From: Microcella alkalica | GTDB taxonomy: Bacteria; Actinomycetota; Actinomycetes; Actinomycetales; Microbacteriaceae | Reading direction: 5' to 3' | Assembly: GCF_014137945.1 (NCBI RefSeq) | Contig: NZ_JACGWX010000001.1 | Coordinates: 372,001-436,000 of the forward strand | Length of the DNA: 64,000 nt | Shown: positions 42,082-57,704 of the stretch, one piece after another | Layout: every line of letters begins with the position of its first letter | How positions within the stretch are numbered: the first letter of the stretch is position 1 | Program-made: the position numbers and the translations under genes | Notes under the pieces: model-generated | What the model was told of the DNA's origin: nothing | What the model saw: only the letters and a program-made list of their open reading frames with translations | Databases searched by the model: none

Positions 42082-42537
42082 ATGGGTGAGAGCCCCCGCG
42101 TCCGCAAGGTCGCCGATCGCATTCACGAGGTCATCGCCAAGCGGCTCGAGCGCGGCATCCGCGACCCCCGCATGGGCTTCGCGACCATCACGGCCGTGCA
42201 GGTGACGGGCGACCTCCAGCATGCGAGCGTCTTCTACACCGTGTACGGCACCGACGAGGAGCGCGCCGACACGGCCGCGGCCCTCAAGGCGGCGACGGGG
42301 ATGCTCCGCACCGAGGTCGGGCGCAACCTCAACACGCGGCTCACGCCGTCGCTCGAGTTCATCCTCGACGGGGTCCCCGAGAACGCCGCCGCCATCGAGG
42401 CGCTGCTGCGCGAGGCGCGGGAGCGGGATGCCCGCACCGAGGCGGAGGCCGCCTCTGCCGAGTACGCCGGCGACCCGGACCCCTACGTCAAGCCGCGCGA
42501 GTTCGACGAGGACGAGGACGAGCCCAGCGAGCGCTGA
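42082..42537 (+). CDS. rbfA: ribosome-binding factor A
   Basis: 151 aa. The core KH-like fold is recognisable: RVRKVADRIHEVIAKRLERG, DPRMGFATITAVQVTGDLQHASVFYTVYG, TPSLEFILDGVPENAAAIEALL. It assists late 30S subunit maturation. A GGGGAAG site precedes the ATG. The C-terminal 30 residues are acidic and vary in the family. It is convergent with the small membrane-protein gene, whose stop lies 6 nt away. truB, a frequent next gene, is not here. Confidence 0.93.
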   Translation: MGESPRVRKVADRIHEVIAKRLERGIRDPRMGFATITAVQVTGDLQHASVFYTVYGTDEERADTAAALKAATGMLRTEVGRNLNTRLTPSLEFILDGVPENAAAIEALLREARERDARTEAEAASAEYAGDPDPYVKPREFDEDEDEPSER

Positions 42538-42543
42538 ACGCGT

Positions 42544-42813
42544 CTACTCGGGAAGAGCCAGAGCGTTCCCGCCCAGCAGGACCATGGCGGCCATCACCAC
42601 GAGCGAGCCGCCGACGATGAGTGCTCCCATGACGCCGAGCACGCCGAGCAGAGCGCCCTCGAGCTTGCCGAGCTTCTCCGTCGACTCGGACGGGGTGGGG
42701 TTGCCGGGCAGCGTCATCGCGGGCTCCTCGTGCGGTGCGGCCCTCGAGCGCGAGGGCGGGGTGGTCGGGGGAGCGGCGAGCCGCTCACGAGCATCCTGAT
42801 CATTGTCGCTCAT
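42544..42813 (-). CDS. small membrane protein, unknown function
   Basis: 89 aa. The N-terminal half is hydrophilic and rich in Pro and Arg. The C-terminal half has one or two hydrophobic stretches ([32 protein letters not shown]). The ATG at 42813 is taken as the start; an in-frame ATG about 31 codons later (MTLPGNPTPSES) is also possible. It lies 32 nt downstream of the MFS gene on the same strand and may be co-transcribed with it. I do not recognise the family. Confidence 0.5.
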   Translation of the reverse strand: MSDNDQDARERLAAPPTTPPSRSRAAPHEEPAMTLPGNPTPSESTEKLGKLEGALLGVLGVMGALIVGGSLVVMAAMVLLGGNALALPE

Positions 42814-42845
42814 GATCCCCTGCGCGCGGTGCGCAGGGCGCGCCC

Positions 42846-44138
42846 TCAGCGGGCGATGGTCGTGCACTCGTCGGCCGAGTCGGGGAGTCGGCGCATCCGC
42901 AGGAGCGGCGAGAGGACGACGAAGCCCGAGCCCAGGAGCATGCCGACGAGCGCGATCTGCAGCGTCGTCGCGATGCCGAGCTGCGCGGCGAGAAGCCCGG
43001 AGAGCACTCCCGCGATCGGCATGACGCCCCACACGACGAAGCGGATCGACGCGTTCATGCGCCCGAGCAGCGGCAGCGGGCAGATGCGCTGCCGGAAGCT
43101 CACCTGCGCGATGTTGTAGACGAGCACGGCGATCGCGCTGAGCGCCTGCCCGAGCATGAGGAGCGGGATCGCCGCGGCCGGCAGGAGCGGCATGAGCACG
43201 ATCGGGATGAGCCCGACGACGCCGAGGAGGGCCGCGACGGGGATGATCGTGCCCTCGCCGACGATCGCGCTCAGCCGCGCAGCGACGATCGCGCCGACGA
43301 TGCCGCCGATCGCGCCGACCGCCGTGGCGATGCCGAAGATCTCCGGGCCGAGACCGAGGTCGCGCAGCACGAGCAGCGGCAGCATCGTGAGCCCGATCGT
43401 GGCGAAGAAATTGGTCGAGGCGGTGCAGAGCGTGATGGCGCGCAGCAGCCGGTTGCCGAACACGAAGCGCAGGCCCTCGGCGATCTCGACGCGCAGCGGT
43501 CGGCGATCCTCCTTGGGGCGGGCGACCTCGTCGTCGCGCACGGTCGCGAGCATGACGAACGAGCCGAGGTACGTCGCGGCGGTGGCGACGAGCAGTACGG
43601 GCGCCTGCACGATCGTGAGCAGCAGGCCGCCCAGTGCGGGGCCGCCGACGCCCGCGAGCTGCGCGGTGGACTCGAGCTTGCCGTTGGCGTCGGCGATGCG
43701 GGCGCGCGGAACGAGCACCGGGATGTAGCTCTGGTAGGCGACGTCGAAGAAGACCGTCGCGACGCCGACGACGACGGCGAAGAGGATGAGGTGCCAGACC
43801 TCGAGCACGCCCGCCCACCACAGCAGCGGAACGGCGGCGAGGGCGAGAACGCGCACGGCGTTCGCCCGCATCATGATGGGACGCTTGCGGGCGCGGTCGA
43901 TCCACGCGCCGGCGGGCAGTCCGACGATGAGGAAGGCGAGCGTGCCGGCGGCGCCGAGCAGCCCGACCTCGATCTCATCGGCGCCGAGGAGGATGATCGC
44001 GAGCACGGGCATCGCGAGGAACCCGAGCTCGCTGCCGAGCTGCGCGCCCGCCTCGCCGCCCCAGAAGCGCAGGAAGTTCGGGCGGCGCCACAGCGATGGG
44101 CCCGAGGAGGGGGCGGCGGCGGTCGGCTCGGTGGTCAC
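42846..44138 (-). CDS. MFS transporter, enterobactin/macrolide-exporter type
   Basis: 430 aa with about 12 hydrophobic segments. The MFS motif-A loop is GAWIDRARKRPIMMRAN. The overall pattern FLRFWGGEAGAQLGSELGFLAMPVLAI fits the MFS_3 group of drug or siderophore exporters. The GTG start is preceded on the minus strand by TTGACA (44175-44170) and CAGACT 18 nt later, 7 nt before the GTG, so the mRNA may be leaderless. The divergent neighbour is an ArsR-type regulator, and a palindrome lies over the -35 box, suggesting repression relieved by an exported compound. The substrate is unknown. Confidence 0.88.
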   Translation of the reverse strand: MTTEPTAAAPSSGPSLWRRPNFLRFWGGEAGAQLGSELGFLAMPVLAIILLGADEIEVGLLGAAGTLAFLIVGLPAGAWIDRARKRPIMMRANAVRVLALAAVPLLWWAGVLEVWHLILFAVVVGVATVFFDVAYQSYIPVLVPRARIADANGKLESTAQLAGVGGPALGGLLLTIVQAPVLLVATAATYLGSFVMLATVRDDEVARPKEDRRPLRVEIAEGLRFVFGNRLLRAITLCTASTNFFATIGLTMLPLLVLRDLGLGPEIFGIATAVGAIGGIVGAIVAARLSAIVGEGTIIPVAALLGVVGLIPIVLMPLLPAAAIPLLMLGQALSAIAVLVYNIAQVSFRQRICPLPLLGRMNASIRFVVWGVMPIAGVLSGLLAAQLGIATTLQIALVGMLLGSGFVVLSPLLRMRRLPDSADECTTIAR

Positions 44139-44158
44139 GGCTGCCAGTCTGCCGTCAC

Positions 44159-44178
44159 CGATTGAGAAGTGTCAATCG
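44159..44178. promoter_or_regulatory. palindromic operator candidate over the MFS promoter
   Basis: CGATTGA (44159-44165), a 6-nt spacer and TCAATCG (44172-44178) form a perfect inverted repeat with 7-bp arms. The TTGACA -35 box of the MFS gene, read on the minus strand, lies within it. Its size and symmetry suit a dimeric winged-helix regulator such as the divergent ArsR-type protein. Confidence 0.55.
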
Positions 44179-44205
44179 CTTCTTCCGGCGCGCTCTCACA
44201 GCGAC

Positions 44206-44211
44206 TACGGT
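44206..44211 (+). promoter_or_regulatory. -10 box of the arsR-type gene, probably leaderless
   Basis: TACGGT is followed by 7 nt and the ATG at 44219. No ribosome-binding site is present. The palindrome at 44159-44178 covers the position expected for its -35 region, so the regulator could also control itself. Confidence 0.45.
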
Positions 44212-44218
44212 GGTCGGC

Positions 44219-44749
44219 ATGAGCAGCGAGGATGCCCGCGAGCGTGCGGCGAGGCGCGCCCTGTCATCGCCGCTGCGGCTGCGAATCCTCCGCTACTGCC
44301 TGTACGAGTCCCACTCGAACCGCGAGATCGCCGTGCAGTTCGGCCTCAATCCCGGCACGAGCCTCCATCACGTGCGCACGCTCGTCGACACGGGCTTCCT
44401 CTCGGCGGAGGATGCGCGCCCCGGGCGGCGCGGGAGCGTGGAGATCCCGTACCGCGCGACGGGCAAGTCGTGGGACTCGCCCACGGAGGGCGGGGGAGAC
44501 CTGCTGATCCGCACCTTCCTGGAGGAGATCGAGGGGCGCGACCTCGACGAGCTCTTCATGGTCCGCATGGGCTTCAAGCTTCGCCCCGACAGGCTCGAGG
44601 AGCTTCAGCGCAGGCTCGTCGACCTCGTGCTCGAGTTCCACGGGTCGCCCGACGACGACGGCGAGCTGTCGAGCCTGTTCATCGCCGGGCACCCGGAGGA
44701 TCGGCCCGAAGCGCGGCCCGCGCCCCGTCAGGGGCCGGGCAGCTCGTAG
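44219..44749 (+). CDS. ArsR-type winged-helix regulator
   Basis: 176 aa. The N-terminal half is a winged helix-turn-helix: LSSPLRLRILRYCLYESHSNREIAVQFGLNPGTSLHHVRTLVDTGFL. The remainder is helical and probably dimerises or senses a ligand. No metal-binding CxC is seen, so it is not a metal-type ArsR. The gene diverges from the MFS exporter across 80 bp holding a palindrome. Its last codons and stop lie inside a 40-bp sequence that recurs exactly at 56802, at the far side of the CRISPR-Cas block. The reading frame ends normally within the shared sequence. Confidence 0.82.
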   Translation: MSSEDARERAARRALSSPLRLRILRYCLYESHSNREIAVQFGLNPGTSLHHVRTLVDTGFLSAEDARPGRRGSVEIPYRATGKSWDSPTEGGGDLLIRTFLEEIEGRDLDELFMVRMGFKLRPDRLEELQRRLVDLVLEFHGSPDDDGELSSLFIAGHPEDRPEARPAPRQGPGSS

Positions 44750-44752
44750 CCC
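44713..44752 (+). repeat. 40-bp direct repeat, left border of the CRISPR-Cas block
   Basis: These 40 bases are identical to 56802-56841 and in the same direction. The repeat begins GCGGCCCGCGCCCCGTCAGG and ends GGCCGGGCAGCTCGTAGCCC. Its middle is a hairpin (arms CCCGCGCCCC and GGGGCCGGG, one bulged C, loop GTCA) that would act as a two-way terminator. It contains the arsR stop codon and, in the right copy, the mutY stop codon. Confidence 0.9.
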
Positions 44753-44763
44753 TGCTCGTGCGG

Positions 44764-44791
44764 CGGTGATCCCTGGGCGAGCGGGGAGCAC
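44764..44791 (-). repeat. degenerate terminal CRISPR repeat, separated from the array
   Basis: Compared base by base with the 28-bp array repeat, 21 of 28 positions agree, and the last 14 (plus strand GAGCGGGGAGCAC and the base before it) are identical. A worn repeat of this type is what is expected at the leader-distal end of a CRISPR array. It lies 12 bp inside the left 40-bp repeat and on the far side of both insertion sequences. Confidence 0.75.
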
Positions 44792-44805
44792 ATGACCTCG
44801 CGGCC

Positions 44806-45596
44806 GGTGTCGTCCCGCTGAGTGGTGGAGTTTCTCAACACCGTGCGGGATCAGCTTCTGGTGATCATGCCGCAGTGAGGTCGGGGATGGCTTCCTCCTC
44901 GGTTTCAGCGTCGAGGAGTTTCATGGAGTGCTCGGAGAAGTAGCGGCGGTCGGCGCCGTCCCATTCGTCGTGCTGCTCGATCAGGACGTGCCCAGCCAGG
45001 CGCAGCAGCGCGGCCGGGTTCGGGAACGTGCCCACCACATCGGTGCGACGTTTGATCTCCTTGTTGACCCGCTTCAGCGGGTTCGTCGACCGAATCTGCC
45101 GCCAACGCGCAGGCGGGAACCCGGTGAACGCGAGTAAGTCGTTGCGGGCTGATCCGAGCATGTCAGCGACCTTCGGATGCGAGCGGCTGAGCATGCGAAC
45201 CACTTCGTCGAACTGGGTGCTCACATGCTCGGCGTCGGGTTAGGCGAAGATCGTGCGGATGATCGAGGCGACCATCGGGCCGGCGGTCTTCTGCACGTTC
45301 GCGAGCACGTTGCGCATGAAGTGAACTCGACATCGTTGCCAGCTGGAGCCTTGGAAGACGGTGTCGATAGCGGCGATCAGACCGACGTGAGCGTCGGAGA
45401 TCACCAGTTTCACCCCGGTAAGCCCGCGGGCCTTCACAGAGCGCAGGAACGTGGTCCAGAAAGGCTGCGATTCGGTGTCTCCCACCTCGAAGCCGAGCAC
45501 TTCCCTGCGGCCGACCGCGGCGACACCGACCGCGAACACGACCGCTTGTGAAACCACCCGTCGACCGACCCGGGCTTTGCAATAGGTCGCGTCGAG
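44806..45596 (-). mobile_element. IS256-family element remnant
   Basis: The outer end (44806 on, GGTGTCGTCCCGCTGAGTGG) matches the right end of the intact IS256-family element at 62004-63418 with one difference. The inner end stops abruptly at 45596, where the IS3-family element begins. About 610 bp of the 5' part, by comparison with the intact copy, are missing. A 14-bp scrap of probable CRISPR spacer (44792-44805) separates it from the degenerate repeat. Confidence 0.85.
44865..45596 (-). pseudogene. IS256-family transposase, truncated and with an internal stop
   Basis: Minus-strand sequence from LDATYCKARV to EEAIPDLTAA corresponds to the C-terminal 60 % of the mutator-type transposase encoded intact at 62126. 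It contains WQRCRVHFMRNVL and the last DDE-region segment. The frame is broken by TAA at 45241-45239, where the intact copy has a glutamine codon (TIFA-stop-PD versus TIFAQPD), a single C-to-T change. The N-terminal part is gone, cut by the IS3 insertion. It cannot make active transposase. Confidence 0.9.
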
Positions 45597-45605
45597 TGTC
45601 CCGCG

Positions 45606-46556
45606 TCAAGTAGTTGGCAGGGTTTCTTCGATTTCGAAGTTGGGGATGGTGGGGTCGGCCAGGCCGAGGTGCACGTCGATCGGCCGGTTCCAGGCGATCG
45701 CTTCGTGAGGACGTTCGGTGTTGTACTCGATGCGGTAGTCCTCTGCGCGTTCGACGAGGGTGAGCGCGTCGGGGATGTCGTCGAGGAACAGCCGCTCGTA
45801 TTTCAATGTTCCGAATCCGCGTTCGCGTGACCCGTTCTGACCCGGTGATCTCACTCGGGTGCGGACGTGACGTAGCTCGGGGTGGCGCATGATGAACAGC
45901 TCGAAATTCAGCGACCGGAACGGGCCGCCGTTGTCCGTCACGATCGTCACCACCGGCAGCAGCTCACCGGTCTCGGGATCGATAGGGCAGGTGTCGACGA
46001 GCGGGTGCCCGAACATCGCTTCGTAATCGACCAAGGCGAGCTCTATCGCCGCGATCGCGTCGTGCTGATTCGCTGTCGGCGACACGTGGAACGGATGCTC
46101 GACCTTGGAGAACCAGTCCCGGCACCCGGCGATCCGCCAGGTGCCACCGGTCGTGGTCTCGAACTCGCTGAAGTCCAGCTGCCACACCTGATTGGGCCCC
46201 GTCGGGTTCCTCGCGAACGCGGCCTTGCGATCCGCCGCGAGCTGGCGGCGCTGCCTCTGGTACTCGGACGGCAGGATCAGCCCGTCATCGCGCAGCAGCC
46301 GCAGCACAGTCGCCTGCGACACCTTATGACCGTCATGCCGCGTCATCGCCCAGATCTTCCGATGACCCCACGCCGGATGCGCCAAGGCGTGTTTCGTGGC
46401 GAGCTCGCGGGCCGCCTCCCTCGCCGGCTGCGGCCACGGGCCCTTCGGCGGTCGGGACTGCTTCGCTTTGGCCTGCCAGCGCCGCCAGGTGCGTTCGGGC
46501 ATGTCGATCAGCTGGCAGAACCTCGAAGTCGACATGCCCGCCTCGACGCGGATCAC
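45606..46556 (-). CDS. IS3-family transposase OrfB (DDE integrase)
   Basis: 316 aa. An N-terminal HPAWGHRKIWAM...VSQATVLRLL segment (HTH_21-like) precedes the rve integrase core with the DDE triad visible in WQLDFSEF, VTDNGGPF and GSRERGFGTLKYE. It starts with GTG overlapping the orfA stop (GTGA), so it seems to be made by stop-start coupling rather than by the programmed -1 shift common in IS3 elements; no slippery A-run was seen. It is intact, so the element may still move. Confidence 0.9.
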   Translation of the reverse strand: MIRVEAGMSTSRFCQLIDMPERTWRRWQAKAKQSRPPKGPWPQPAREAARELATKHALAHPAWGHRKIWAMTRHDGHKVSQATVLRLLRDDGLILPSEYQRQRRQLAADRKAAFARNPTGPNQVWQLDFSEFETTTGGTWRIAGCRDWFSKVEHPFHVSPTANQHDAIAAIELALVDYEAMFGHPLVDTCPIDPETGELLPVVTIVTDNGGPFRSLNFELFIMRHPELRHVRTRVRSPGQNGSRERGFGTLKYERLFLDDIPDALTLVERAEDYRIEYNTERPHEAIAWNRPIDVHLGLADPTIPNFEIEETLPTT

Positions 46557-46870
46557 CTCGAGGTCCTCGAAGGGCCCAAGCGGCCCTCGGCGCTCTTCTT
46601 CCAGACGCGGATCTCAACCGCTGCCTCACCCAGAGCCTGGGTGAGCTCGGCGACCTCGTCCTCGAGTTGCTGCTCCCGGGTCGAGGGCTTGGACTTGCCC
46701 GCCTCGATCCCAGCCTTGCCGCCCTCGAGGAACTGGCGCTTCCAGTTCCCGATCGCTTGCTCGGAGACCTTCTCACGGCGGGCTGCCTCGGCGATCGTGA
46801 TCTCGCCCTGCAGCACGGACAACACGATGCGGAGCTTCTTCTCCGCGGGGATCGTGGGGGGACGACTCAT
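46553..46870 (-). CDS. IS3-family OrfA (helix-turn-helix)
   Basis: 105 aa. A helix-turn-helix of the transposase_8 type (AEKKLRIVLSVLQGEITIAEAARREKVSEQAI...) is followed by a leucine-heptad coiled coil (QQLEDEVAELTQALGEAAVEIRVW). It binds the ends of the element and works with OrfB. The gene sits 70-80 bp inside the right end, the usual place. Confidence 0.88.
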   Translation of the reverse strand: MSRPPTIPAEKKLRIVLSVLQGEITIAEAARREKVSEQAIGNWKRQFLEGGKAGIEAGKSKPSTREQQLEDEVAELTQALGEAAVEIRVWKKSAEGRLGPSRTSR

Positions 46871-46943
46871 GACATTCAGACCTTTCAGCTGGGGCGTTGC
46901 ATCAGCAACTAACTACCCCTGCCAAACATTCTGACGCGCGACA

Positions 46944-47560
46944 GGAGCACAACTCGGCCTCCGCACGAATCGCCACAAGGTTGGGATCACCCCCGCACGA
47001 GCGGGGAGCACGCGCCACCCTCTGCGGCGAGCTTCCGCGCTCTGGGATCACCCCCGCACGAGCGGGGAGCACACATGCGACTCATTGTGCATCTCGGTAC
47101 TGGGGGGATCACCCCCGCACGAGCGGGGAGCACTCGTCGATCAGCTGCTGCCATTCCGGCCAGTCGGGATCACCCCCGCACGAGCGGGGAGCACGCCCAC
47201 TATTCGGGGCCGGACGCTACTCGCCAGGGATCACCCCCGCACGAGCGGGGAGCACGACATCATCCACAGCTGGCCCTGACTGCCACCAGGATCACCCCCG
47301 CACGAGCGGGGAGCACGACATCATCCACAGCTGGCCCTGACTGCCACCAGGATCACCCCCGCACGAGCGGGGAGCACCCTTGGCTGAGCGGATTGCTGCG
47401 CGGCCAATTGGGATCACCCCCGCACGAGCGGGGAGCACGATCTTGCTTCGGTGGGGCAGCGGTTGCGGGAGGGATCACCCCCGCACGAGCGGGGAGCACG
47501 TCCGGGTGACAACACAACATACGAGTCGCCAGGGATCACCCCCGCACGAGCGGGGAGCAC
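46944..47560 (-). CRISPR. type I-E CRISPR array, 10 full repeats plus one truncated
   Basis: The 28-bp repeat begins (plus strand) GGATCACCCCCGCACGAG and ends CGGGGAGCAC; a 29th base, G, precedes it in most copies. Repeats start at 46984, 47045, 47106, 47167, 47228, 47289, 47350, 47411, 47472 and 47533, an exact 61-bp period, so spacers are 33 bp (32 if the repeat is counted as 29). The last 7 nt of an eleventh repeat survive at 46944-46950, joined directly to the IS3 element. Spacers at 47256-47288 and 47317-47349 are identical. The leader is on the cas2 side, so transcription runs leftward and the newest spacer is next to 47533. Confidence 0.98.
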
Positions 47561-47604
47561 TCTACCTGATCAGCGATTTTACCAACGAGTGCGTGTTTGC
47601 CGTT
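47561..47604 (-). promoter_or_regulatory. CRISPR leader
   Basis: This short stretch between the cas2 stop and the first repeat is richer in A/T than its surroundings. On the minus strand it contains TTGGTAAAAT (47585-47576), a sequence resembling the region just before the first repeat in type I-E leaders. Only 44 bp are free, so the functional leader must extend into the 3' end of cas2. Confidence 0.6.
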
Positions 47605-47979
47605 TCATTTCTCGTGTGACTCAGGTTTCGCGTGGCGAGCCAGCATTCTGCTCTTGCTCGCGTTGCTCCAGCCGGGCCTGAGCTGTGGTGGTGGGTTCCG
47701 ATGCCCTGCCGCGGGCCGAAGTATGAGTTGTATTCCGTCCAGGTCGACGGGTATCCAATCGTGCCGATGGACCGTGAACGCGAGCCGCTGCTCACCCCGA
47801 ACCGAGTGAATCATGATCGCTCTGCCGTCCTTGGCCAGTTCGACTACGCGTTCCCACAGGAGATCGCGCACTCGCGCCGTCACATGACCGACGAATACGC
47901 CTGCACTGATCTCAAGTAGCCACCGTGTCAGGTGCCCGCGCAGTCCTGCGGGGCACGCGGTAACGACGATCACGACCAT
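47605..47979 (-). CDS. cas2: CRISPR-associated endonuclease Cas2e
   Basis: 124 aa. The N-terminus MVVIVVTACPAGLRGHLTRWLLEISAGVFVG is characteristic of Cas2 of type I-E. It forms the Cas1-Cas2 spacer-integration complex. It is about 10-25 residues longer than common Cas2e because of a C-terminal tail (GWSNASKSRMLARHAKPESHEK). The DNA encoding that tail overlaps the probable leader. An AGGGGGG site precedes the ATG, which lies 9 nt after the cas1 stop. Confidence 0.93.
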   Translation of the reverse strand: MVVIVVTACPAGLRGHLTRWLLEISAGVFVGHVTARVRDLLWERVVELAKDGRAIMIHSVRGEQRLAFTVHRHDWIPVDLDGIQLILRPAAGHRNPPPQLRPGWSNASKSRMLARHAKPESHEK

Positions 47980-47988
47980 GGCACCCCC

Positions 47989-48921
47989 CTATCCATAGTC
48001 CACTCCGGCAGCAACACTGCGTTCCGCGCCGTCCCACAGCCTCACGACGTTGAGTTCGCTCATCTCGTCGTCACGATCGTCGGGGAGAAGAAGTGTGTGG
48101 AGGTCGCGAGTGCACTGCTTCAGGATTGAACCGTCGAACACCGCGTCTCGCACCGCGTGGCGGGTTTCCGCGGCGATGTCGACGGGGCCGGCAGCGACGA
48201 CATTGAAGGCGGCGGGGATGCTCACCTCCGCCTTGTAGAGGTCGGCAATGTCGTATACGAAAGACCTGATGTGCCCAGTGTGCACGAACCCGAGCCCGGG
48301 TGAGCAACCGAGCGCAACGATGACGGCATGCACGATGCCATAGAGGCAGGTGTGGGCGGCTGACAGTGCCATGTTGATTGCGTCGGAGGCCTCAAACTCG
48401 TCGGGATCGTAATCCCGCCGATCCCACTTGACACCGGTTCGTCGCGCTTCTTGACGATAAACCTGGCGCACGCGTGCACCTTCGCGACCACGAAGCTGCT
48501 GCATCGTGAAAGTACGGACATCCTCATCCGGAAACCTCATGCAGTACATCGCCCGTGCTACTCGAAGTCTGCTCGACTGATTGGCGAAGGCGCGTGCCTG
48601 AGCTTCGAGTAGACGTGAACTTCGAGCGAGCGAGCGACCGTGCGCGTAGTACCGCACGCCCCGCTCTCCGACCCAAACAACCGTGGAACCGCACTCGGCG
48701 AGTACCACCATGGCCTGGTGGCTGACGGTCGTACCGGGGCCGAGCAGCAGCGCACCGAGAGATGCGGCAGGGATGTGGATGGTGCCGCGCTCGTCTGTCG
48801 CCGTGACGGCGTTGTGCTCCCGATGGATCACCGCTCGTTCGACGTAGACGAATGAGAGGCGGTCCTCCGCGCGGACCAACTCGGGAAGGTCGGGCGGTGG
48901 AGAGCCAGGTATCTTCGCCAC
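47989..48921 (-). CDS. cas1: CRISPR-associated integrase Cas1
   Basis: 310 aa, the I-E length. The metal-binding residues fall in REGARVRQVYR (Glu), FVHTGHIRSFVYDIADLYK (His and Asp), and the fold-defining RLSFVYVERAVIHRE start is present. It integrates new spacers with Cas2. cas6e lies 3 nt upstream. The coding sequence is uninterrupted, so adaptation should be possible. Confidence 0.95.
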   Translation of the reverse strand: MAKIPGSPPPDLPELVRAEDRLSFVYVERAVIHREHNAVTATDERGTIHIPAASLGALLLGPGTTVSHQAMVVLAECGSTVVWVGERGVRYYAHGRSLARSSRLLEAQARAFANQSSRLRVARAMYCMRFPDEDVRTFTMQQLRGREGARVRQVYRQEARRTGVKWDRRDYDPDEFEASDAINMALSAAHTCLYGIVHAVIVALGCSPGLGFVHTGHIRSFVYDIADLYKAEVSIPAAFNVVAAGPVDIAAETRHAVRDAVFDGSILKQCTRDLHTLLLPDDRDDEMSELNVVRLWDGAERSVAAGVDYG

Positions 48922-48924
48922 GGG

Positions 48925-49578
48925 CTATCTCGCCGCCACCGTAAGAAGTCCGCAGCCATAGCCCTTGGCGCGGCCGACGCCGTGCGTAAGCGCGTGACGG
49001 AACCGGTCCGCGTCGGTCACTTCGAGGCGCCCGTCGTAACGAGCCGTCACAAGGGTGACGGTGTTACCGTTTCGACGGAAGCTCCGCTTGATTCTCTCAC
49101 TGACGATAACGTTCGGTTCGCCCGAGGTTGGCTCAGGTATGCGAAAGCCATGGTTATCAGTCCGGCCAAGCAACCAATCTCGCTGCTGATCGGCCGTGAC
49201 GTGCCCGAGTCGTTTGCCTGCGTGATCCGGTTCGCGGCTCTGCTTCACCGGGTTCGCGGTCAGGCGGAACGCATAATGCTGGCCGGCCGCGACTCGCCCC
49301 AGGAGTGGCGTGTAGTCGCGGGTGTCCCAGGTGGCGGTTGTCGGCCATCCTGCCTGTTCTATGAGGTGGGTGAGGTCAGGGCGTTCGGGGCTGACGACAT
49401 AGAGCCACAGGTGCGGATGCTCACGATCGATTCTCCAGAGGACGCGTCCGTCGGTCGTCGGGCCGCTGGAGTCCGGCGGGAAACCCGCGAGCACAGCGGC
49501 ATGGAGGGCTTGCGGAGAGGCGAGCAGACGTCCGGTCCCGCGCCGCGCCGGGTTCAGTGCCGCCTGGGTCAGGAACAC
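48925..49578 (-). CDS. cas6e: crRNA-processing endonuclease Cas6e
   Basis: 217 aa (CasE/Cse3). The C-terminal glycine-rich loop GVGRAKGYGCGLLTV and the N-terminal MFLTQAALNPARRGTGRLLASPQALHAAV are diagnostic; the His in the latter region is the likely catalytic residue. It cuts the array transcript within the repeat hairpin. The GTG start shares one base with the cas5e stop. Confidence 0.94.
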   Translation of the reverse strand: MFLTQAALNPARRGTGRLLASPQALHAAVLAGFPPDSSGPTTDGRVLWRIDREHPHLWLYVVSPERPDLTHLIEQAGWPTTATWDTRDYTPLLGRVAAGQHYAFRLTANPVKQSREPDHAGKRLGHVTADQQRDWLLGRTDNHGFRIPEPTSGEPNVIVSERIKRSFRRNGNTVTLVTARYDGRLEVTDADRFRHALTHGVGRAKGYGCGLLTVAAR

Positions 49579-50294
49579 TATCGAGCCTCCAGCAGCGTCA
49601 TCGGTTCGTGCGCCGAACCCGGTGGAGGAGCGTCGGTCACGCCGAAAGGATTGTCGACCACGACCGCGGGTTCGTGCACCATGGTCCGCCAGTCGTACTC
49701 TCGTCGTTCCGGGTCGAAGCTGAGCGGCAGGTCGCGGATGATGTCGCCGCGTTCGCCAGCATTAACGGCGTCGCGCACGAACGGCAACTCGACGCGCTTG
49801 ACCCGTGTCCGTCTCTGGTGGTGCTCGGAAGCATGCCATTTCTCCTGTCGCAGAACATCCGCGAGCGTGCCAGGTCGGATGCCGAGCGAGACGATCCCGG
49901 TCGGCGGGCACGAGCGCCGTCCGAGATAGAGCGGGAACGCCGGGCTGTTCACGGCCTCGTGGATGCCGTCCAGCAGGGTGGCGTCCGCTTCGAGCCCGGC
50001 AACGAACACCGCGTCGGCGAGGTAGTAGCGGTAGGACAACGCCGAGTGCTTCCAACTAGGGTGGCGTGCAGTCTGGAAGTCGCGGATCAGGCGACCGGGT
50101 TGCTCGGTTCGCACCCCGTATAGGAGGTGCGTGAGATCCTCGATCGGATCGGTGCGTCTGCGCCCCTGAGCCGCAGCGATGAGCCCGATGACTCCGCTCT
50201 TGGTCGGTTCGGTTCCGGTCTGCCGACGCGTGAAGCGGCTCGAGTCGCCCCAGGACTGCAGCGGGCCGGCGAGCCGGAGAAGTAGCACGGTCAC
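49578..50294 (-). CDS. cas5e: Cascade subunit Cas5e
   Basis: 238 aa (CasD). VLLLRLAGPLQSWGDSSRFTRRQT at the N-terminus and SGVIGLIAAAQGRRR are the family signature. It caps the 5' end of crRNA in the Cascade complex. It overlaps cas7e by 4 nt and cas6e by 1 nt, so the operon is tightly coupled. Confidence 0.95.
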   Translation of the reverse strand: MTVLLLRLAGPLQSWGDSSRFTRRQTGTEPTKSGVIGLIAAAQGRRRTDPIEDLTHLLYGVRTEQPGRLIRDFQTARHPSWKHSALSYRYYLADAVFVAGLEADATLLDGIHEAVNSPAFPLYLGRRSCPPTGIVSLGIRPGTLADVLRQEKWHASEHHQRRTRVKRVELPFVRDAVNAGERGDIIRDLPLSFDPERREYDWRTMVHEPAVVVDNPFGVTDAPPPGSAHEPMTLLEAR

Positions 50295-51421
50295 CGTGTC
50301 GCCCCGAGCCGCTCCGCGACCGCGCTCTCGACCGCCTTCACGAGCTCGTCGAGGGTGACGGGGTTGCCCAACCCGCTCAGCGGCTCTGTCTGGGTTCCGG
50401 TGCGCAGCACGAAACTAGCCACCGGCTTCTGCGAGTAGGCCGTGTCGACCTCGCGAGCGTAGTCGGCGAGCCGGGTGCTCGCCCGATGCAGGCGGGTTTC
50501 GTCTTCGTTCGCGACGACGGCATCCTCGAACGCCCCCGCCAGGTTGACCGGTTGCCGATCGCGTATGGTGACCAGAGCCGCCTCGGGCAGGCTGCGGTTG
50601 GCGAAGGTGTTCTGCTTGCCGGTGGGCATGCTCGTGATGAAGGCGCGGAGGAATGCTCCGACAGCTGCTGCACTCGCCCCGGGCGAGCCGAGTGTGGTGT
50701 CGAGGGCGTTGCTGTCAACCGTGGCGTAGCGGTAGAGCGTGGACGAGTTGAACTCGACGGTACCGATCATCCCGGCTCCGGCGTTGTCCTCTGGCGACTT
50801 GTCATCGACGGCGGTGAAGTAGTCGTATTCGTTGTCGACGGCGTGCACACTGATGGCGTGGGAGACTTGCGCTGCAGCATCCACATTGATGTCAGGGGCA
50901 TCGGCCACCATCCGCCCGAAGAGCGCCATGTCGATGCTGTGGTCGCGATTGGCTGCCTCCTTCACGGCTTTCTTGTCGAGAACGGTGCCGCTTCGTTCGG
51001 ACTGGACGGCGAGGGTGGCGAGGTGGCCGAGTTGGCGGGCGCTGAGGAAAATCAAGTAGCTGACCTCGGCGGTCGGCTCAGCCTCCTCGTTCTTGCCCTT
51101 CTTCGGCTTTTCGACCTTGATGCCCGCCGTCGTGAGCACTTTCTCCGCGAGAGACTCGGATTGCTCCGCGAGCTCGGGGGCTTGCTCGGCGATCCGTTGT
51201 GCGATCAGTTCGACGACCTTCTTGGTGCGGACTCCGAGCTCGGCCGGATCGAGCGTTTCGTTGAAGGCGGTCCGCGTAGCGCGTTTCCACGCCTGGCTGG
51301 AGACCCGGGCGCGGCGAGTCCCGCCATAGATCGCGGTCTTGGGGCTGCCCGTGTCGTCGCGGTTGAGGTTGCTCGGCGGCACGGTGTGGAGGATGTGGAT
51401 GTCGACGATAGTACGGCTCAT
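50291..51421 (-). CDS. cas7e: Cascade backbone subunit Cas7e
   Basis: 376 aa (CasC/Cse4). VDIHILHTVPPSNLNRDDTGSPKTA and GGTRRARVSSQAWKRATR are typical. Six copies normally coat the crRNA. It overlaps cse2 (ATGA) and cas5e. An internal acidic/lysine-rich insertion (about residues 105-120, KVEKPKKGKNEEAEPT) looks specific to this lineage. Confidence 0.95.
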   Translation of the reverse strand: MSRTIVDIHILHTVPPSNLNRDDTGSPKTAIYGGTRRARVSSQAWKRATRTAFNETLDPAELGVRTKKVVELIAQRIAEQAPELAEQSESLAEKVLTTAGIKVEKPKKGKNEEAEPTAEVSYLIFLSARQLGHLATLAVQSERSGTVLDKKAVKEAANRDHSIDMALFGRMVADAPDINVDAAAQVSHAISVHAVDNEYDYFTAVDDKSPEDNAGAGMIGTVEFNSSTLYRYATVDSNALDTTLGSPGASAAAVGAFLRAFITSMPTGKQNTFANRSLPEAALVTIRDRQPVNLAGAFEDAVVANEDETRLHRASTRLADYAREVDTAYSQKPVASFVLRTGTQTEPLSGLGNPVTLDELVKAVESAVAERLGATR

Positions 51422-52044
51422 GATTGCTCCCTCTGAGGATCGGTGTTCTGTGCAGTGGTTTCATCGGTTGCCGTGGTGGTTTTGGGTTCTGCCCGGTAAT
51501 AGTCCCGCCCCCAACGCAGGCGTACACCGTTGCGATGGGCGGGACTCTGGAGGTCGAAAAGGTCCGCGGCGAACTGCCCATAATCGAGCGGGATTCGTGC
51601 CGCGCGGAATTGCGTGACCAGCCCACGGGCGTGCACGAGTGCTTCTTCGAGAGCCTCCGCTGTGGCAAGGGCCTGGAACCGTCGGAGCACGGCCTGCTCG
51701 CTCGATGTCTCCCGTCGGCTCAGCTGGCGGGCTGCCGTGCCGAATCCCACTCCGGACCGATGCATGGACTCGCTCACCGACTGCTGGTGGGCGGCGAAGA
51801 GTGAAAGGGCAATGTGGACGGAGCGTTCGGCCGCGGTGGGTTTGTCATCGCGACCGCTGTACTGCGCGGGGAGGCCGAGGGTCTCCTCCCAGAGCAGAGG
51901 ATTGCTCCCTGGCTCCGCCCCACTTCCTCGCCTCAGCCTCGCCAGGGTCGCGGTAGCTTCTCCCCGACCGCCTTCGGAGCTGCGATGCAGGTCGATGACT
52001 CGTTTTCTCACGAACTCCTTCAGGTCGTCGGTGTGGGCGCTCAT
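51418..52044 (-). CDS. cse2: Cascade small subunit Cse2 (Cas11e)
   Basis: 208 aa (CasB). It is an all-helical basic protein with FVRKRVIDLHRSSEGGRGEATATLARLRRG and VGFGTAARQLSRRE, the Cse2 signature. Two copies usually stabilise the target-bound complex. It begins 35 nt after cas8e and overlaps cas7e by 4 nt. The length is near the upper end of the family. Confidence 0.92.
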   Translation of the reverse strand: MSAHTDDLKEFVRKRVIDLHRSSEGGRGEATATLARLRRGSGAEPGSNPLLWEETLGLPAQYSGRDDKPTAAERSVHIALSLFAAHQQSVSESMHRSGVGFGTAARQLSRRETSSEQAVLRRFQALATAEALEEALVHARGLVTQFRAARIPLDYGQFAADLFDLQSPAHRNGVRLRWGRDYYRAEPKTTTATDETTAQNTDPQREQS

Positions 52045-52079
52045 CGGGGTCCTCCTTCCGTGCTTGCTGTTCCGGTCGG

Positions 52080-53738
52080 TTAGGTGTTTTCGGCCGAGGT
52101 CGACAGCGCCCTGGCGAGCGCTCCCAAGAACCAGCCGTGTGCTTCAGATGCGTTGATGTGCTTGCCGTCCTTCTCGCGCCCAATCCACGACGCGGGTCCG
52201 GCATCCTCCACCCTCTGGTCACCGAGCTCGCGCAGGACTCGGTACGCCTCCGCATACCAGTCCTCGCGGGCCTCCGTGGGAGAAGTGCCCGCGGCGAGTT
52301 CGCTGAGCCATCGGCGGAACGGGGCGTCGAGGGCGAAATAGCCGAGTTCTCGGGCACGGTCGCGGGCGCCCTCCGCCTCGCCGCCCGCGGCGACCGCGAG
52401 ATTGCCGGCGAGGTTGACGAGGGCGGTGACGGCGCTGTCGGTGTTCTCGACAGCGGTCACCGCGGCGGCGGCGAGCGCGGTGCCCCGCTCGGCGAGCAGC
52501 ACCGAATGGATGGTCAGGGCATCGTCGATGAGTTCGTCAACGACGGAGCTATTCGAGCCGTACGCGACGCCGATTGCTCGTGTGCGCAGCACATAATCCT
52601 CATCGAGGATCCCTTCGACCTGCAATTTTGCGATCCAGGAGAGGTTTCCCGGAGGTAGTGAACGCGATCCTTCGGTGCCGAGCTTGTCCTGGGTGGCTTG
52701 CGGAAGTAGAGCAGCAAGGCCTCGCCACAACGCGCGTTCCGGGGCGTGAGTGCGCGCCATGTAGACGCGTGGCAGGCCCAGCTTCTTCTCCTGTGGCTCG
52801 CTGCGCCGCCAGGCTGTCATATTTTCGGCCGGGTGCCGGTTCTGCGACCAAAGCTGATCCCCGTTGGAAAGCAGGACACCGGTGACCTCGTCACCCTCGG
52901 CTGCGAGCTGGATTCTGCGACTCTGCCATGTCAACAGGTCGAGTTGGCCGGTCGGGAGCCAGTCCTCGCCATCGTCGCCGGTCCTAACACCGGCGCCAGG
53001 CAGGTTCTCACGTTCCCAGATCGGGACGTCGTTGGGCGAGTCCACCCGTGCTCCAGTGCTGATGTCGCCGAGCACGAGATTGAGGAGCAGGGTTTCGCGC
53101 AGCGTGGCACCCTCGATCACCAGGCCGCCGATCGATCCGGCCCAGGCTGTTCCGATGGGGTAACCCTTGCCTCCCTTCACGCGATCGTCACCCACAACTC
53201 CAGACTTGATTCCGGACGGGTCGAAAGCCTGTGCGTGGATCAGCCAGCGCGCAGCCTCGGCGAGGCCGATCCGTTCGACCCCTCGTCCGCGCCGAGTGGT
53301 GAAGTATGGCTCGCCGTTGGGAACATCCGCGATGATCCGTTCGAGTCCGGTGACCTCGCCCGTCGCGGTGTGCAGCCCGGCCACCTGGTAGAACGGTTCG
53401 CTCGGGTGCAGCAGGTCGAAACGATGCCGCCACTGGTCGAGGTAGCCGTCGGTCACTTCGCTCAAGGGTTCGGGGCTCGACCAGAGACGGCCCCAGAGCT
53501 CGACGGGGGTCATCCCGCCTGAGTCGATGATCGGGCGAACCGCGGAATGCAGGATCGCGAGTAGCAGCCTCACGAGCGCGAACGTTTGTGTGGGCAGCTC
53601 ACCGACGACCGAGCGGATGTCATGCGCTTGCGCGAAGGCCTCGCGCAGCGACACCTCGCGCACGCCGCCGTCGAAGCGCACGAGTAGCCACGGCTCGCGG
53701 GTGAGGTCGAAGGTCGGAGGAGACACGTCGGGAGACAT
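52080..53738 (-). CDS. cas8e: Cascade large subunit Cas8e (Cse1)
   Basis: 552 aa (CasA). FDLTREPWLLVRFDGGVREVSLREAFAQAHDI at the N-terminus and the overall length fit Cse1, which recognises the PAM and recruits Cas3. The ATG at 53738 overlaps the cas3 stop (ATGA); longer upstream readings fall inside cas3. A loop region around residues 130-160 (LHTATGEVTGLERIIADVP) corresponds to the variable PAM-reading part. No interruptions are seen. Confidence 0.94.
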   Translation of the reverse strand: MSPDVSPPTFDLTREPWLLVRFDGGVREVSLREAFAQAHDIRSVVGELPTQTFALVRLLLAILHSAVRPIIDSGGMTPVELWGRLWSSPEPLSEVTDGYLDQWRHRFDLLHPSEPFYQVAGLHTATGEVTGLERIIADVPNGEPYFTTRRGRGVERIGLAEAARWLIHAQAFDPSGIKSGVVGDDRVKGGKGYPIGTAWAGSIGGLVIEGATLRETLLLNLVLGDISTGARVDSPNDVPIWERENLPGAGVRTGDDGEDWLPTGQLDLLTWQSRRIQLAAEGDEVTGVLLSNGDQLWSQNRHPAENMTAWRRSEPQEKKLGLPRVYMARTHAPERALWRGLAALLPQATQDKLGTEGSRSLPPGNLSWIAKLQVEGILDEDYVLRTRAIGVAYGSNSSVVDELIDDALTIHSVLLAERGTALAAAAVTAVENTDSAVTALVNLAGNLAVAAGGEAEGARDRARELGYFALDAPFRRWLSELAAGTSPTEAREDWYAEAYRVLRELGDQRVEDAGPASWIGREKDGKHINASEAHGWFLGALARALSTSAENT

Positions 53739-56677
53739 CAGGGGGCTTCCTTTTTGGCTGCGGCGGAATCCGTCACTTCGAGGCCGCGCTCGCGGCTGTA
53801 TTGCAAGTCCCACTTGCCGACTCGCCCACGCAGTTGGTCGTCGAGAACGACGACCAACTGTCCGCTGAGCCAGCGGGACTGCTGCCAACCGGGGTAGGCG
53901 TTGCGCTCGAGTTCCCGGATGACCGCGTCGATGTTCCACGGCTTGCTCATGATCCCGGGCAGCCGGGTGCTCGAGTTCGCGGCGGCGACGGCTGAGGCGT
54001 AAGGCGGTTCCGTATCTATGGGCAGGCTGCGCCCGCCGCCTTCGGGCAGGCTGTCCAGCGTCCGGAGTTCTTCCTCGTTGCCCTGCACGAGGATCACCTC
54101 GAGGGTGTCTTCGCTGTCGCGGACCTGGGCACGCCCTCGTTCCTCGTTGGCATCGCCGATGCCGCGGTCCAGCCATCCGAGTAGTGAGCCGTTCTGGGTC
54201 TCGATGTCCCGAAGGAGAAACGTCTTCGCACGCTCCTCTTTCTCGGCGCGCTCAATCTTCCATATCCGGCGGGCCGCATCCATCGCCTCCGACCACGCGG
54301 CTGGGGTCGCGGCGCGCTTCTCGAAGGCGGCTTCCACGAGGCGGGGAATGTCACTGGGGAGCGCAATGGGTTGCCCGGCGAGGTGACTGTCGAGGGCGAC
54401 CAGACTGCGGAGCAGGGTGTAGTCGCCATACACGAAAGCGGAGCGCTTCTCCAGTTCGGGTGGCGCCGTAGCCCAGTTCTCGACGCCGGTGATGAGACAG
54501 CGTGGTTCGGCGACCGCGGCAGGGCGGTGAGATCGGGGATGCCGATGCAACCGCCCGATCCGCTGCAGCAGGAGGTCTGTGGGGGCGAGGTCGGTGACCA
54601 TAAGGTCGAAGTCGATGTCGAGAGACTGTTCGACGACCTGGGTCGCGACGATCACCGCGCGGTGCGGCCGGCGTTCGCCGAACTGTTCCGGCAACCCCGG
54701 TGGCCCAAAGTGCGTGCGCAACCATTCGTCGTTGCGGGCACGGTCGGCGGCGACGAACCGCGAGTGCATGAGACGCAAGTCGACCTCGAGATCCAATTCG
54801 TTCTCCAGCAGTCGCATGGTTTCCTGCGCCCGTCCCACCGTGTTGCGGATCACAACAGCGCACCCACCGTCGGCGAGGCGTTCGCGCAGCAGCACCAGCA
54901 GGCTCGCATCGTCATCAGCGAGGCGTTCGAGGGTCACGTTCGTGGCACGCCCGGACGCCGGAACGGCGTGGACGAGCGGATCAGGATCCCTGGTGGCGGT
55001 GATGAGCGGGTAGCCGGCGAGTTCTAACGGGCTCGCGGAGTCCTCGACCGGCTGCACCGAGCTGGGTGACTGGCTGGCCTTGAGCAATGCGGCGAGGCTC
55101 GAACCATCCGCCTCCTGAACCCTGGGCAAGGAAGCCGCTTTCTCGCGTACTCGTTCAGCAGCCGAGGTGCCACCGCGATAAGCCTCGAGAAGAGCCTTCC
55201 GTTGCGCCGACGGGAGCGTCGCCGACAGCAGGACGGTCGGCACGCCGTAGGCTCCGAGCCAGTGCAGCACCCGCTCCAGATAGGTGCTCATGTAGACATC
55301 GACGGCGTGGACCTCGTCGATGATGACGACCTTGCCGACGAGGGCGAGGTGGCGCAGCATGAGGTGTCGCGTCCTTAGTGCGGCGAACAGGATCTGGTCG
55401 ATCGTGCCGACGACGAAGTTCGACAGCGGGCCCTTCTTGCGGCCCGACAGCCACTGGTGCGCGATCACCACTTCGGATGGCATCGATCGGTTGCGCCTTG
55501 GTTCGTAGGCATCGTCCCCGATCGCTCCAAGCCGACTGTCACGGCGAAGCTCGGTGAACTCCTTGTTGAGTGAAGCCTTGCTATGGGCGAGGAAGAGGCT
55601 GCGGGCATCTCCCTGCGCCGGCAGGTGGTCGATCCAGGCGCGGACACGAGAGAACATGGCATCGCTCGTGGCCATCGTCGGCAGGGCGACGAAGCATCCG
55701 CCCGCCCCGCTGCGCTCGGCGAAGATCTCGGCGGCGGCAAGGGCTGCTTCGGTTTTCCCCTCGCCCATGGGCGCCTCGATGATCATGAGCCCCGGCCGGT
55801 CGACCGCCCACGCGACCTCGACCGCGGCGAGTTGCACCGGCCGCGGTGTGGCGCCCGCGGGCAGGTCGAACCGTTCGGCATACAGGGTGGCGGCATCCTG
55901 GGGTGGCGCGAGCGGATGCCAGGCCGGGGTGAGCATGACGTCCTGCCAGGCGTCGGCGGCACGATCCAGCGAATCGCGATGGTCGTCATAGCGGAATCGT
56001 TCGGAATCACTCGCCAGCCAGTCCGCGACGATCACTGTCGCGGTGATCAAGATCTGGGCGTCCAGGCCCAGCGGCTTCCGGGACCAGTCGGCAAAATCAG
56101 CCGAGGTCACCCCGGCGAGAGCCGCAGCAAAGCCGGCCAAGCCGTCCTGCGCCAGGCGCCAGGTCGGCGCCTCACCAATAAGCGTCGGGCGCCAAGGAAC
56201 ACCCAGGAGTTCGCCGTTGGTCGGCGTGACTCCGTGGTGACTCCCCGGCACGACGGCGTAGCTTCGGGCGACTTCCCTGTTCCAGCCGTGGCACTCCTCG
56301 AGCCAGCGGCCGAGCAGGTGCATGCTCGCAAGCGAGTGGGGAAGGAGCGCACGTTCGCTGGCGAAGGCGTGGAAATCGAATCCGGCACCCCGCATCCCTT
56401 CGCAGAGTTCGGGCACCTGCATCTGGAACGCAGCGGTGGCCTTTCCGAGGTCGTGGGAGGCGGCCAGCCAGACCAATCGACGCCGGGCCTGCGCTTCATC
56501 GTGGAGATCGGCACTCAGGCGTCGGATGACGCCGCGTGGCAGCCACTCGTCCCAGAGCAGTCCGGCGACCGCTGCACTGTCCGCCATATGCCGCCAGAGC
56601 AGGAGAGACGAATTGGTGGTGCGATCGGATTTCGCCCACGGCAAAGCGGCGGGACCAACCGGACGCGTCGCCGCCAC
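53738..56677 (-). CDS. cas3: CRISPR-associated helicase-nuclease Cas3
   Basis: 979 aa. An N-terminal HD nuclease (ASHDLGKATAAFQ, later SHHGVTP and VADWLAS) is followed by a superfamily 2 helicase with Walker A APMGEGKTEAAL, the DEVH box IIDEVHAVD, SATLP and motif VI QRIGRLHRH. It degrades DNA marked by Cascade. The GTG start follows AAAGGAGGGG, a very strong ribosome-binding site. It is the first gene of the cas operon; the promoter must lie in the 124 bp between it and the right 40-bp repeat. Confidence 0.95.
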   Translation of the reverse strand: MAATRPVGPAALPWAKSDRTTNSSLLLWRHMADSAAVAGLLWDEWLPRGVIRRLSADLHDEAQARRRLVWLAASHDLGKATAAFQMQVPELCEGMRGAGFDFHAFASERALLPHSLASMHLLGRWLEECHGWNREVARSYAVVPGSHHGVTPTNGELLGVPWRPTLIGEAPTWRLAQDGLAGFAAALAGVTSADFADWSRKPLGLDAQILITATVIVADWLASDSERFRYDDHRDSLDRAADAWQDVMLTPAWHPLAPPQDAATLYAERFDLPAGATPRPVQLAAVEVAWAVDRPGLMIIEAPMGEGKTEAALAAAEIFAERSGAGGCFVALPTMATSDAMFSRVRAWIDHLPAQGDARSLFLAHSKASLNKEFTELRRDSRLGAIGDDAYEPRRNRSMPSEVVIAHQWLSGRKKGPLSNFVVGTIDQILFAALRTRHLMLRHLALVGKVVIIDEVHAVDVYMSTYLERVLHWLGAYGVPTVLLSATLPSAQRKALLEAYRGGTSAAERVREKAASLPRVQEADGSSLAALLKASQSPSSVQPVEDSASPLELAGYPLITATRDPDPLVHAVPASGRATNVTLERLADDDASLLVLLRERLADGGCAVVIRNTVGRAQETMRLLENELDLEVDLRLMHSRFVAADRARNDEWLRTHFGPPGLPEQFGERRPHRAVIVATQVVEQSLDIDFDLMVTDLAPTDLLLQRIGRLHRHPRSHRPAAVAEPRCLITGVENWATAPPELEKRSAFVYGDYTLLRSLVALDSHLAGQPIALPSDIPRLVEAAFEKRAATPAAWSEAMDAARRIWKIERAEKEERAKTFLLRDIETQNGSLLGWLDRGIGDANEERGRAQVRDSEDTLEVILVQGNEEELRTLDSLPEGGGRSLPIDTEPPYASAVAAANSSTRLPGIMSKPWNIDAVIRELERNAYPGWQQSRWLSGQLVVVLDDQLRGRVGKWDLQYSRERGLEVTDSAAAKKEAP

Positions 56678-56801
56678 ATCCCCTCCTTTCGTCAGTGTTT
56701 CCTGCTCAACACCCCAACCATTTCGGAGGGATCGTCAGGGTCAGGGTAGGGGCACGCGCCGACATTGGGTAGGCTGACGAGCCTCACTTCCCCTCTGCGG
56801 A

Positions 56802-56841
56802 GCGGCCCGCGCCCCGTCAGGGGCCGGGCAGCTCGTAGCCC
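56802..56841 (+). repeat. 40-bp direct repeat, right border of the CRISPR-Cas block
   Basis: This is identical to 44713-44752. Here the sequence forms the 3' end of mutY (its stop reads TGA on the minus strand, 56819-56817, in the hairpin loop). The left copy forms the 3' end of arsR. Removing everything between the copies would leave arsR and mutY convergent, with overlapping ends and one shared terminator hairpin. Confidence 0.9.
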
Positions 56842-57704
56842 GACTCGCGCGAGCCGGTTGCGAGGCCGTCAGCCAGAAGGCCGGCCAGGGCGCGCTCGCG
56901 CTGCACGGCATCCGCCCACAGGCCGTCGATGATCTCGGCGGGGACCGGCCCCTCCGCGTGGCGCAGCTCGCGCATGATGAGGCCGCGCACCTGCCGGTCG
57001 CTGCCCTCGAAGCGCGCCTGACGCGGGGCGCGGGGGCCGTCGTAGTCGGGGTAGCCCGCGGCGCGCCAGGCGCACAGCGCGGCGAGCGGGCACGCGTCGC
57101 AACGGGGGGTGCGGGCGTCGCACACGACCTGGCCGAGCTCCATGAGCCCCGCGTTCATCAGGCGGGCATCCGCAGCATCGTCAGGGAGGAGCGCTTCCAT
57201 GTCCGCGAGATCCGCGCGCGTGCGGGCCGGGCCCGCCGCCCCGCGGCCATGGATCGCGCGCGCGATCACGCGGCGCGTGTTGACGTCGACGACCGGCGCG
57301 CGCACGCCGAACGCGAAGCTCGCGACCGCGCGCGCGGTGTAGTCGCCGATGCCGGGGAGGGCGAGCAGGGCATCCACGTCGCTCGGCACCTCGCCGCCGT
57401 GCCGCTCGCTGATCGCGACCGCCGCGGCGTGCAGGTTGAGCGCGCGACGCGGGTAGCCCAGGCTATCCCACGCGCGCACCGCCTCGGCGGGGGAGTCGGC
57501 GGCGAGCGCTTCGGGCGACGGCCAGCGCGCGAGCCACTGCTCGAGCCGCGGGATCACCCGGGCGACCGGGGTCTGCTGCAGCATGATCTCGCTCACGAGC
57601 ACGCCCCACGGAGAGAACCCCGGTGCGCGCCACGGCAGCGGCCGTGCGTTCGCGAGGAACCAGGGGATGACGCGCCCGCTGGGGGAGGACTCGGCGGCCG
57701 TCAC
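56817..57704 (-). CDS. mutY: A/G-specific adenine glycosylase
   Basis: 295 aa. The HhH-GPD core has SEIMLQQTPVARV (catalytic Glu), LPGIGDYTARAVASFAFG and VVDVNTRRVIARA (catalytic Asp). The 4Fe-4S cluster is C-x6-C-x2-C-x5-C (CDARTPRCDACPLAALC). It removes adenine mispaired with 8-oxoguanine. The length is normal for actinobacteria, which lack the long C-terminal domain. The final codons lie in the right 40-bp border repeat, and the gene is intact. Confidence 0.93.
   Translation of the reverse strand: MTAAESSPSGRVIPWFLANARPLPWRAPGFSPWGVLVSEIMLQQTPVARVIPRLEQWLARWPSPEALAADSPAEAVRAWDSLGYPRRALNLHAAAVAISERHGGEVPSDVDALLALPGIGDYTARAVASFAFGVRAPVVDVNTRRVIARAIHGRGAAGPARTRADLADMEALLPDDAADARLMNAGLMELGQVVCDARTPRCDACPLAALCAWRAAGYPDYDGPRAPRQARFEGSDRQVRGLIMRELRHAEGPVPAEIIDGLWADAVQRERALAGLLADGLATGSRESGYELPGP

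Follow-up and report, generated by a model that had tools for sequence, protein, structure and literature searches.

The 64,000-nucleotide stretch of the Microcella alkalica genome analysed here (NCBI RefSeq assembly GCF_014137945.1, contig NZ_JACGWX010000001.1, positions 372,001 to 436,000; hereafter the window, numbered from its first letter) carries a predicted complete type I-E CRISPR (clustered regularly interspaced short palindromic repeats)-Cas unit, bracketed by two identical 40-bp direct repeats at the point where the convergent genes arsR and mutY meet. It is very probable that a foreign type I-E unit entered this lineage as one block at the arsR-mutY overlap and that 40 bp were duplicated. 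As to mechanism, capture during the repair of a chromosomal break is narrowly preferred to an island whose integrase has decayed or acts in trans, event and mechanism together being given a probability of roughly 0.44, and a fair reader could reverse that order.

Boundaries and content of the insert

Exact matching recovered the 40-mer at both borders in the same orientation (Table 1), and these are its only two sites in the 2.74-Mb assembly when up to three mismatches are allowed. No exact direct repeat in the window is longer once the CRISPR array is set aside; the runners-up are low-complexity repeats of 31 and 22 bp, followed by one of 19 bp, so that chance can be ruled out as the source of the pair. 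The 12,049-bp insert between the two copies (44753-56801) begins 11 bp ahead of the degenerate terminal CRISPR repeat, and its other end lies 124 bp upstream of where cas3 starts (56677). The GC content of the insert is 65.5%, as against 70.9% and 71.2% in the flanks, and is foreign relative to them. From the assembly alone an integrated block is not distinguishable from a circle sharing the 40-mer.

The insert holds one full unit, from cas3 to cas2, together with insertion sequence (IS) remains. All eight Cas proteins match type I-E or Cas3 family models above curated cut-offs, the genes stand in the type I-E operon order (cas3-cas8e-cse2-cas7-cas5-cas6-cas1-cas2) with the signature proteins Cse1 and Cse2 both present, and the array has the type I-E format of 28-bp repeats and 33-bp spacers. 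An earlier reading made from the letters of the window (the sequence-only reading) had described perfect same-direction 40-bp repeats around a complete type I-E unit, running from 124 bp before cas3 to 11 bp past the last degenerate repeat, and the exact matches, the coordinates and the eight Cas proteins are all in agreement with it.

The 3' ends of arsR and mutY overlap, and each gene ends in frame within one copy of the 40-mer, both being intact. Repeat position 16 is the start of the mutY stop codon and position 37 the end of the arsR stop codon, giving a stop-to-stop overlap of 22 bp, which the 40-mer exceeds by 15 bp on one side and 3 bp on the other. Both genes survived because the duplication covers this entire overlap; a shorter duplication there would change the terminus of arsR, of mutY or of both. 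The sequence-only reading had also taken the repeat to be a shared 3' end with a terminator hairpin. The convergent 3' ends stand, whilst the terminator is weaker: the 40-mer folds at -26 kcal/mol, with a z of -3.0 on the + strand and -1.6 on the other strand, but its counterparts in two relatives (G024 and G002; z of -0.5 and -1.7) fold no better, or little better, than shuffles, and no T-tract follows the 40-mer.

Empty sites in related genomes

A sample of 26 genomes represented the genus, 19 of them with completeness of 90% or more and contamination of 5% or less. The arsR protein was matched in nine, strongly in seven, namely the source genome (G000), G024, G002, G020, G010, G006 and G015. 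In all six of the other strongly matching genomes arsR lies no more than 45 bp from mutY and the insert is absent. A single-copy counterpart of the 40-mer occurs in G024, G002 and G020 (35, 36 and 35 of 40 bases identical, respectively), and in G010, G006 and G015 arsR adjoins mutY without the insert, the junction sequence having diverged. A relative with one 40-bp copy and no insert had been suggested as a check on block insertion, and G024, G002 and G020 are such relatives; the case that would speak against it, a CRISPR locus beside a single copy of the 40-mer, was not seen in this sample, in which Cas8e was found in one genome of the 26, the source. The empty sites thus support the proposal of block insertion at the arsR-mutY junction. 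A second genome with two core copies was sought, with three mismatches allowed, and none was found among the 26. The idea of a genus-wide hotspot at mutY was considered and rejected, the source genome being alone in carrying two core copies.

In the wider family Cas1 was matched in 22 of 398 genomes, of which 16 gave strong and I-E-like matches (the source included), two were 36-37% identical and four were weak. The nearest unit, in G184, is 80% identical in Cas1 and 56% in Cas3, so that the donor is unsampled.

Proposed capture by break repair

In the favoured explanation a linear DNA segment would have carried the type I-E unit, one end having been broken inside the palindromic array. A break in the arsR-mutY overlap would have captured this segment, via end joining of the Ku/LigD type or microhomology repair, and fill-in of the staggered ends would have duplicated the 40 bp. 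The left border would then need no special explanation, since it is located within the array. The 20 bases that follow the left copy match the inverted CRISPR repeat at 18 positions, the best match elsewhere being 16 of 20 (41.8 kb of flank, both strands), and the genome encodes Ku and a LigD polymerase domain. A further signature is repeat position 21, where the two copies share a G whereas the seven relatives compared have A or C (G024, G002, G020, G010, G006, G003 and G008; G015, whose best match lies elsewhere, was not counted). An incoming element with its own, differing attachment copy should leave borders that differ at this position; on the sequence evidence the duplicate looks host-derived. 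The lean towards break repair is due to the remnant at the left joint, the presence of Ku and LigD, the lack of a recognised integrase, the poor conservation of the 40-mer and position 21.

A number of considerations weigh against capture by break repair. It is unusual for a break to be staggered by 40 nt and then filled in completely, and no precedent for this was met in the literature searched. The closeness of the right border to cas3, just 124 bp, is not predicted by random capture, and long repeats at the 3' ends of genes are the classic mark of attachment sites. A sister species outside the sample with the same 40-mer could have supplied the copy, which would void the position-21 argument. 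The first ten bases after the left copy agree with the CRISPR repeat at nine positions, with the mutY of G002 at eight and with the right copy at seven, and the repeat is also readable as 50 bp at 94%, like a diverged attachment copy; the resemblance at the left joint can be read either as microhomology or as a longer imperfect repeat. When the window was aligned to 100 kb of G002, with alignments longer than 200 bp listed, the flanking alignments overlapped by 53 bp at the insert but by 0, 0, 6 and 0 bp at four further places where the lengths differ by over 500 bp, so that long duplications are not a habit of the lineage. Flanking repeats are described in one report as serving as attachment sites (PMC3191183).

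Alternative explanations

An integrase-type island is quite possible, if the less probable reading. The 40-mer would be its attachment core, and its integrase would have been lost or would have acted in trans, in which case it may have come from a visiting phage or plasmid. Such islands are recognised by direct repeats placed at the 3' end of a gene and by an empty site in relatives; both are found here, the repeat being perfect and both genes whole. Precedents are the Vibrio island GI-24 and a 12-kb region in V. albensis (PMC6360697), and also the microcin H47 island, which has no integrase of its own and is mobilised in trans (PMC3191183).

Against this stands the search for an integrase and its site. 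The claim that no integrase lies inside held, none being recognised among the cas and IS genes that by position fill the insert (overlapping spurious open reading frames, ORFs, lay outside the scan), and the genome gave no match to the serine recombinase family PF07508. It does have six tyrosine recombinase matches. Around four of these, 20 kb were examined, the two left out being the best-scoring, presumed XerC/D; the longest match to the 40-mer was 13 bp, which is the chance level (10-15 bp in stretches of relatives). Three of these four apparently use other sites, since one (L205) lies beside tRNA-Phe, a second (L206) beside tRNA-Leu, and at the third (L207) the 3' end of tRNA-Val is one copy of a 21-bp direct repeat whose other copy is close to the integrase. 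In viral_contigs one core pattern had no exact match. Accordingly, the earlier description of the repeat as an att-like core was not borne out. The core is, in addition, poorly conserved, the nearest relatives agreeing with it at 35-36 of 40 bases, and no other genome among the 26 has it twice.

It had also been suggested that the 40-bp or hairpin sequence be sought at the borders of other type I-E loci, and such borders were surveyed for flanking repeats in general. Of 95 loci, 73 were counted, the exclusions being five duplicates, L145, eight with short flanks and eight that lack either cas3 or a cas gene downstream; matches were sorted by eye into CRISPR-derived and other. One of the 73, L088 in Pseudonocardia thermophila, has a clear flanking repeat that is not CRISPR-derived, and in this respect favours an integrase-type island: the repeat is 80 bp long, includes the 3' end of tRNA-Gly and has copies at 1204-1319 and about 16587. 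The 17-bp border matches of L084 and L116 were taken as chance, and the remaining loci had none or had matches that looked CRISPR-derived by eye. Border repeats are therefore uncommon at type I-E loci within the flanks surveyed, which extended to at most about 10 kb from cas7 and were partly taken up by arrays, so that distant repeats could be missed, and the one case found differs in kind, being of the tRNA type. Next to the tRNA of L088 an ORF was considered by eye as an integrase relic and rejected, as it had no Pfam match.

Tn7-like tns genes are absent from the named genes filling the insert; both IS remains are internal, to the left of the array, and do not stand at both borders as in a composite transposon; and terminal inverted repeats, as expected of a casposon or transposon, are absent, the insert ends being no more alike than random pairs.

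A single RecA crossover with a circle that already bore the arsR-mutY 40-mer predicts exactly the structure observed, but is unlikely: it only relocates the question of how the 40-mer was first duplicated, RecA would have a short homology to work with in 40 bp, and the stretch at the right border gave three weak matches to plasmids, at chance level. The stretch at the left border gave weak matches to 16 phage records, and the array matched one phage record at 68%. Cas8e relatives occur in 111 plasmid records, the best at about 50% identity among the matches listed, and Cas1 relatives at five loci on viral contigs, at no more than 53% identity.

It is quite unlikely that a bare type I-E unit is itself mobile, its palindromic array end recombining with CRISPR-repeat-like host DNA, through Cas1-Cas2 or repeat-primed break repair, to give a long host-derived target duplication without a conventional integrase or transposase. 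Very unlikely is an ancestral unit lost from the relatives by recombination between the repeats; a clean loss would likewise leave one copy, but many losses would be required, given Cas8e in one of the 26 genus genomes and strong I-E-like Cas1 in 16 of the 398 family genomes, and the GC content is foreign, gain being much simpler than repeated loss. Most improbable of all is insertion of the unit by its own Cas1-Cas2 at a CRISPR-repeat-like host sequence. In its favour, Cas1-Cas2 is a DNA integrase that the unit itself encodes, the left edge carries the inverted repeat remnant, and the target is able to fold into a hairpin whose loop has 4 nt. Against it, the length of the CRISPR repeat is 28 bp and not 40, its best match to the 40-mer (14 of 28) is below the maximum of the flanking background (19), and terminal repeats are absent.

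Features of the locus

Table 1. Position, strand and supporting evidence of features at the arsR-mutY locus (window numbering).
Feature	Position	Strand	Evidence
arsR-like HTH gene, 176 aa, 3' end inside left repeat copy	44219-44749	+	ORF; HTH_20 E 4e-5, below curated cut-off
Left 40-bp direct repeat copy	44713-44752	+	exact repeat search
Inverted CRISPR-repeat remnant adjoining left copy, 18/20 bases	44753-44772	-	
Degenerate terminal CRISPR repeat, 21/28 bases	44764-44791	-	
IS256-type transposase remnant, C-terminal half, in-frame stop near 45240	44865-45557	-	profile match below cut-off, fragment
IS3/IS481-like element, inverted ends TGTC...GACA (by eye)	45597-46943	-	profile matches below curated cut-offs
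CRISPR array, 10 repeats, nine 33-bp spacers (two neighbours identical)	46984-47561	-	
cas2e	47605-47979	-	TIGR01873
cas1e	47989-48921	-	TIGR03638
cas6e	48925-49578	-	TIGR01907
cas5e	49578-50294	-	TIGR01868
cas7e	50291-51421	-	TIGR01869
cse2	51418-52044	-	TIGR02548
cas8e (cse1)	52080-53759	-	TIGR02547; PF09481
cas3, HD + helicase	53738-56677	-	profile matches
Spacer from cas3 to right repeat copy, 124 bp	56678-56801	-	
Right 40-bp direct repeat copy	56802-56841	+	exact repeat search
mutY, 295 aa, 3' end inside right repeat copy	56817-57704	-	ORF; HhH-GPD

The identical adjacent spacers at 47256-47349 represent a duplicated repeat-spacer unit. To the left of the array the IS3/IS481-like element sits within a CRISPR repeat, of which the last 7 bases remain, and adjoins the truncated IS256 remnant (44865-46950); the interior of the array between the IS remains and the terminal repeat seems to have been lost. 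In the array of the closest relative (G184, L137) the last repeat is interrupted by a coding sequence, IS21-like by eye.

The interval from rbfA to mutY (42537-57704) is variable in the genus. The window carries MFS and arsR genes there (by ORF reading), G008 (L152) a TetR-like gene, by eye, and G003 (L153) no ORF of its own of at least 120 aa. The mutY of G008 (L006) ends, by eye, in a short stretch duplicated in tandem, the sequence of which falls inside the repeat core in the window.

Comparison with known systems

Transfer of CRISPR-Cas systems between lineages is known, and its boundaries are seldom this clean: the empty sites can be seen here along with the two junctions and a base specific to the lineage. 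It is a good test case for asking whether the movement of immune cassettes depends on an integrase or can come about through capture by break repair. The locus is a clean new example and not a new kind, because parallels have been published for Marinomonas, V. albensis and microcin H47. Marinomonas mediterranea MMB-1 has, as here, a whole CRISPR-Cas operon between direct repeats, which the authors call reminiscent of integration scars, and the sister strain CPR1 has no remnant of it; that operon is of type III-B and its repeats are of about 200 bp (PMC5576922). In Vibrio, too, a type I-E unit forms a strain-variable island, and the V. albensis form, a 12-kb region at the GI-24 site, had no integrase identified, whereas GI-24 itself carries an integrase and att sites and its excision has been detected; host and site differ from those here (PMC6360697). 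The microcin H47 island resembles the present insert in its direct repeats, its lack of an internal integrase and its scale (13 kb), but has antibacterial cargo and extensive imperfect repeats, and its excision and integration in trans are reported (PMC3191183). The Pseudonocardia thermophila locus of our own survey is likewise a type I-E unit between direct repeats, which differs in its 80-bp repeat with the tRNA-Gly 3' end and in having several additional kb of DNA to either side.

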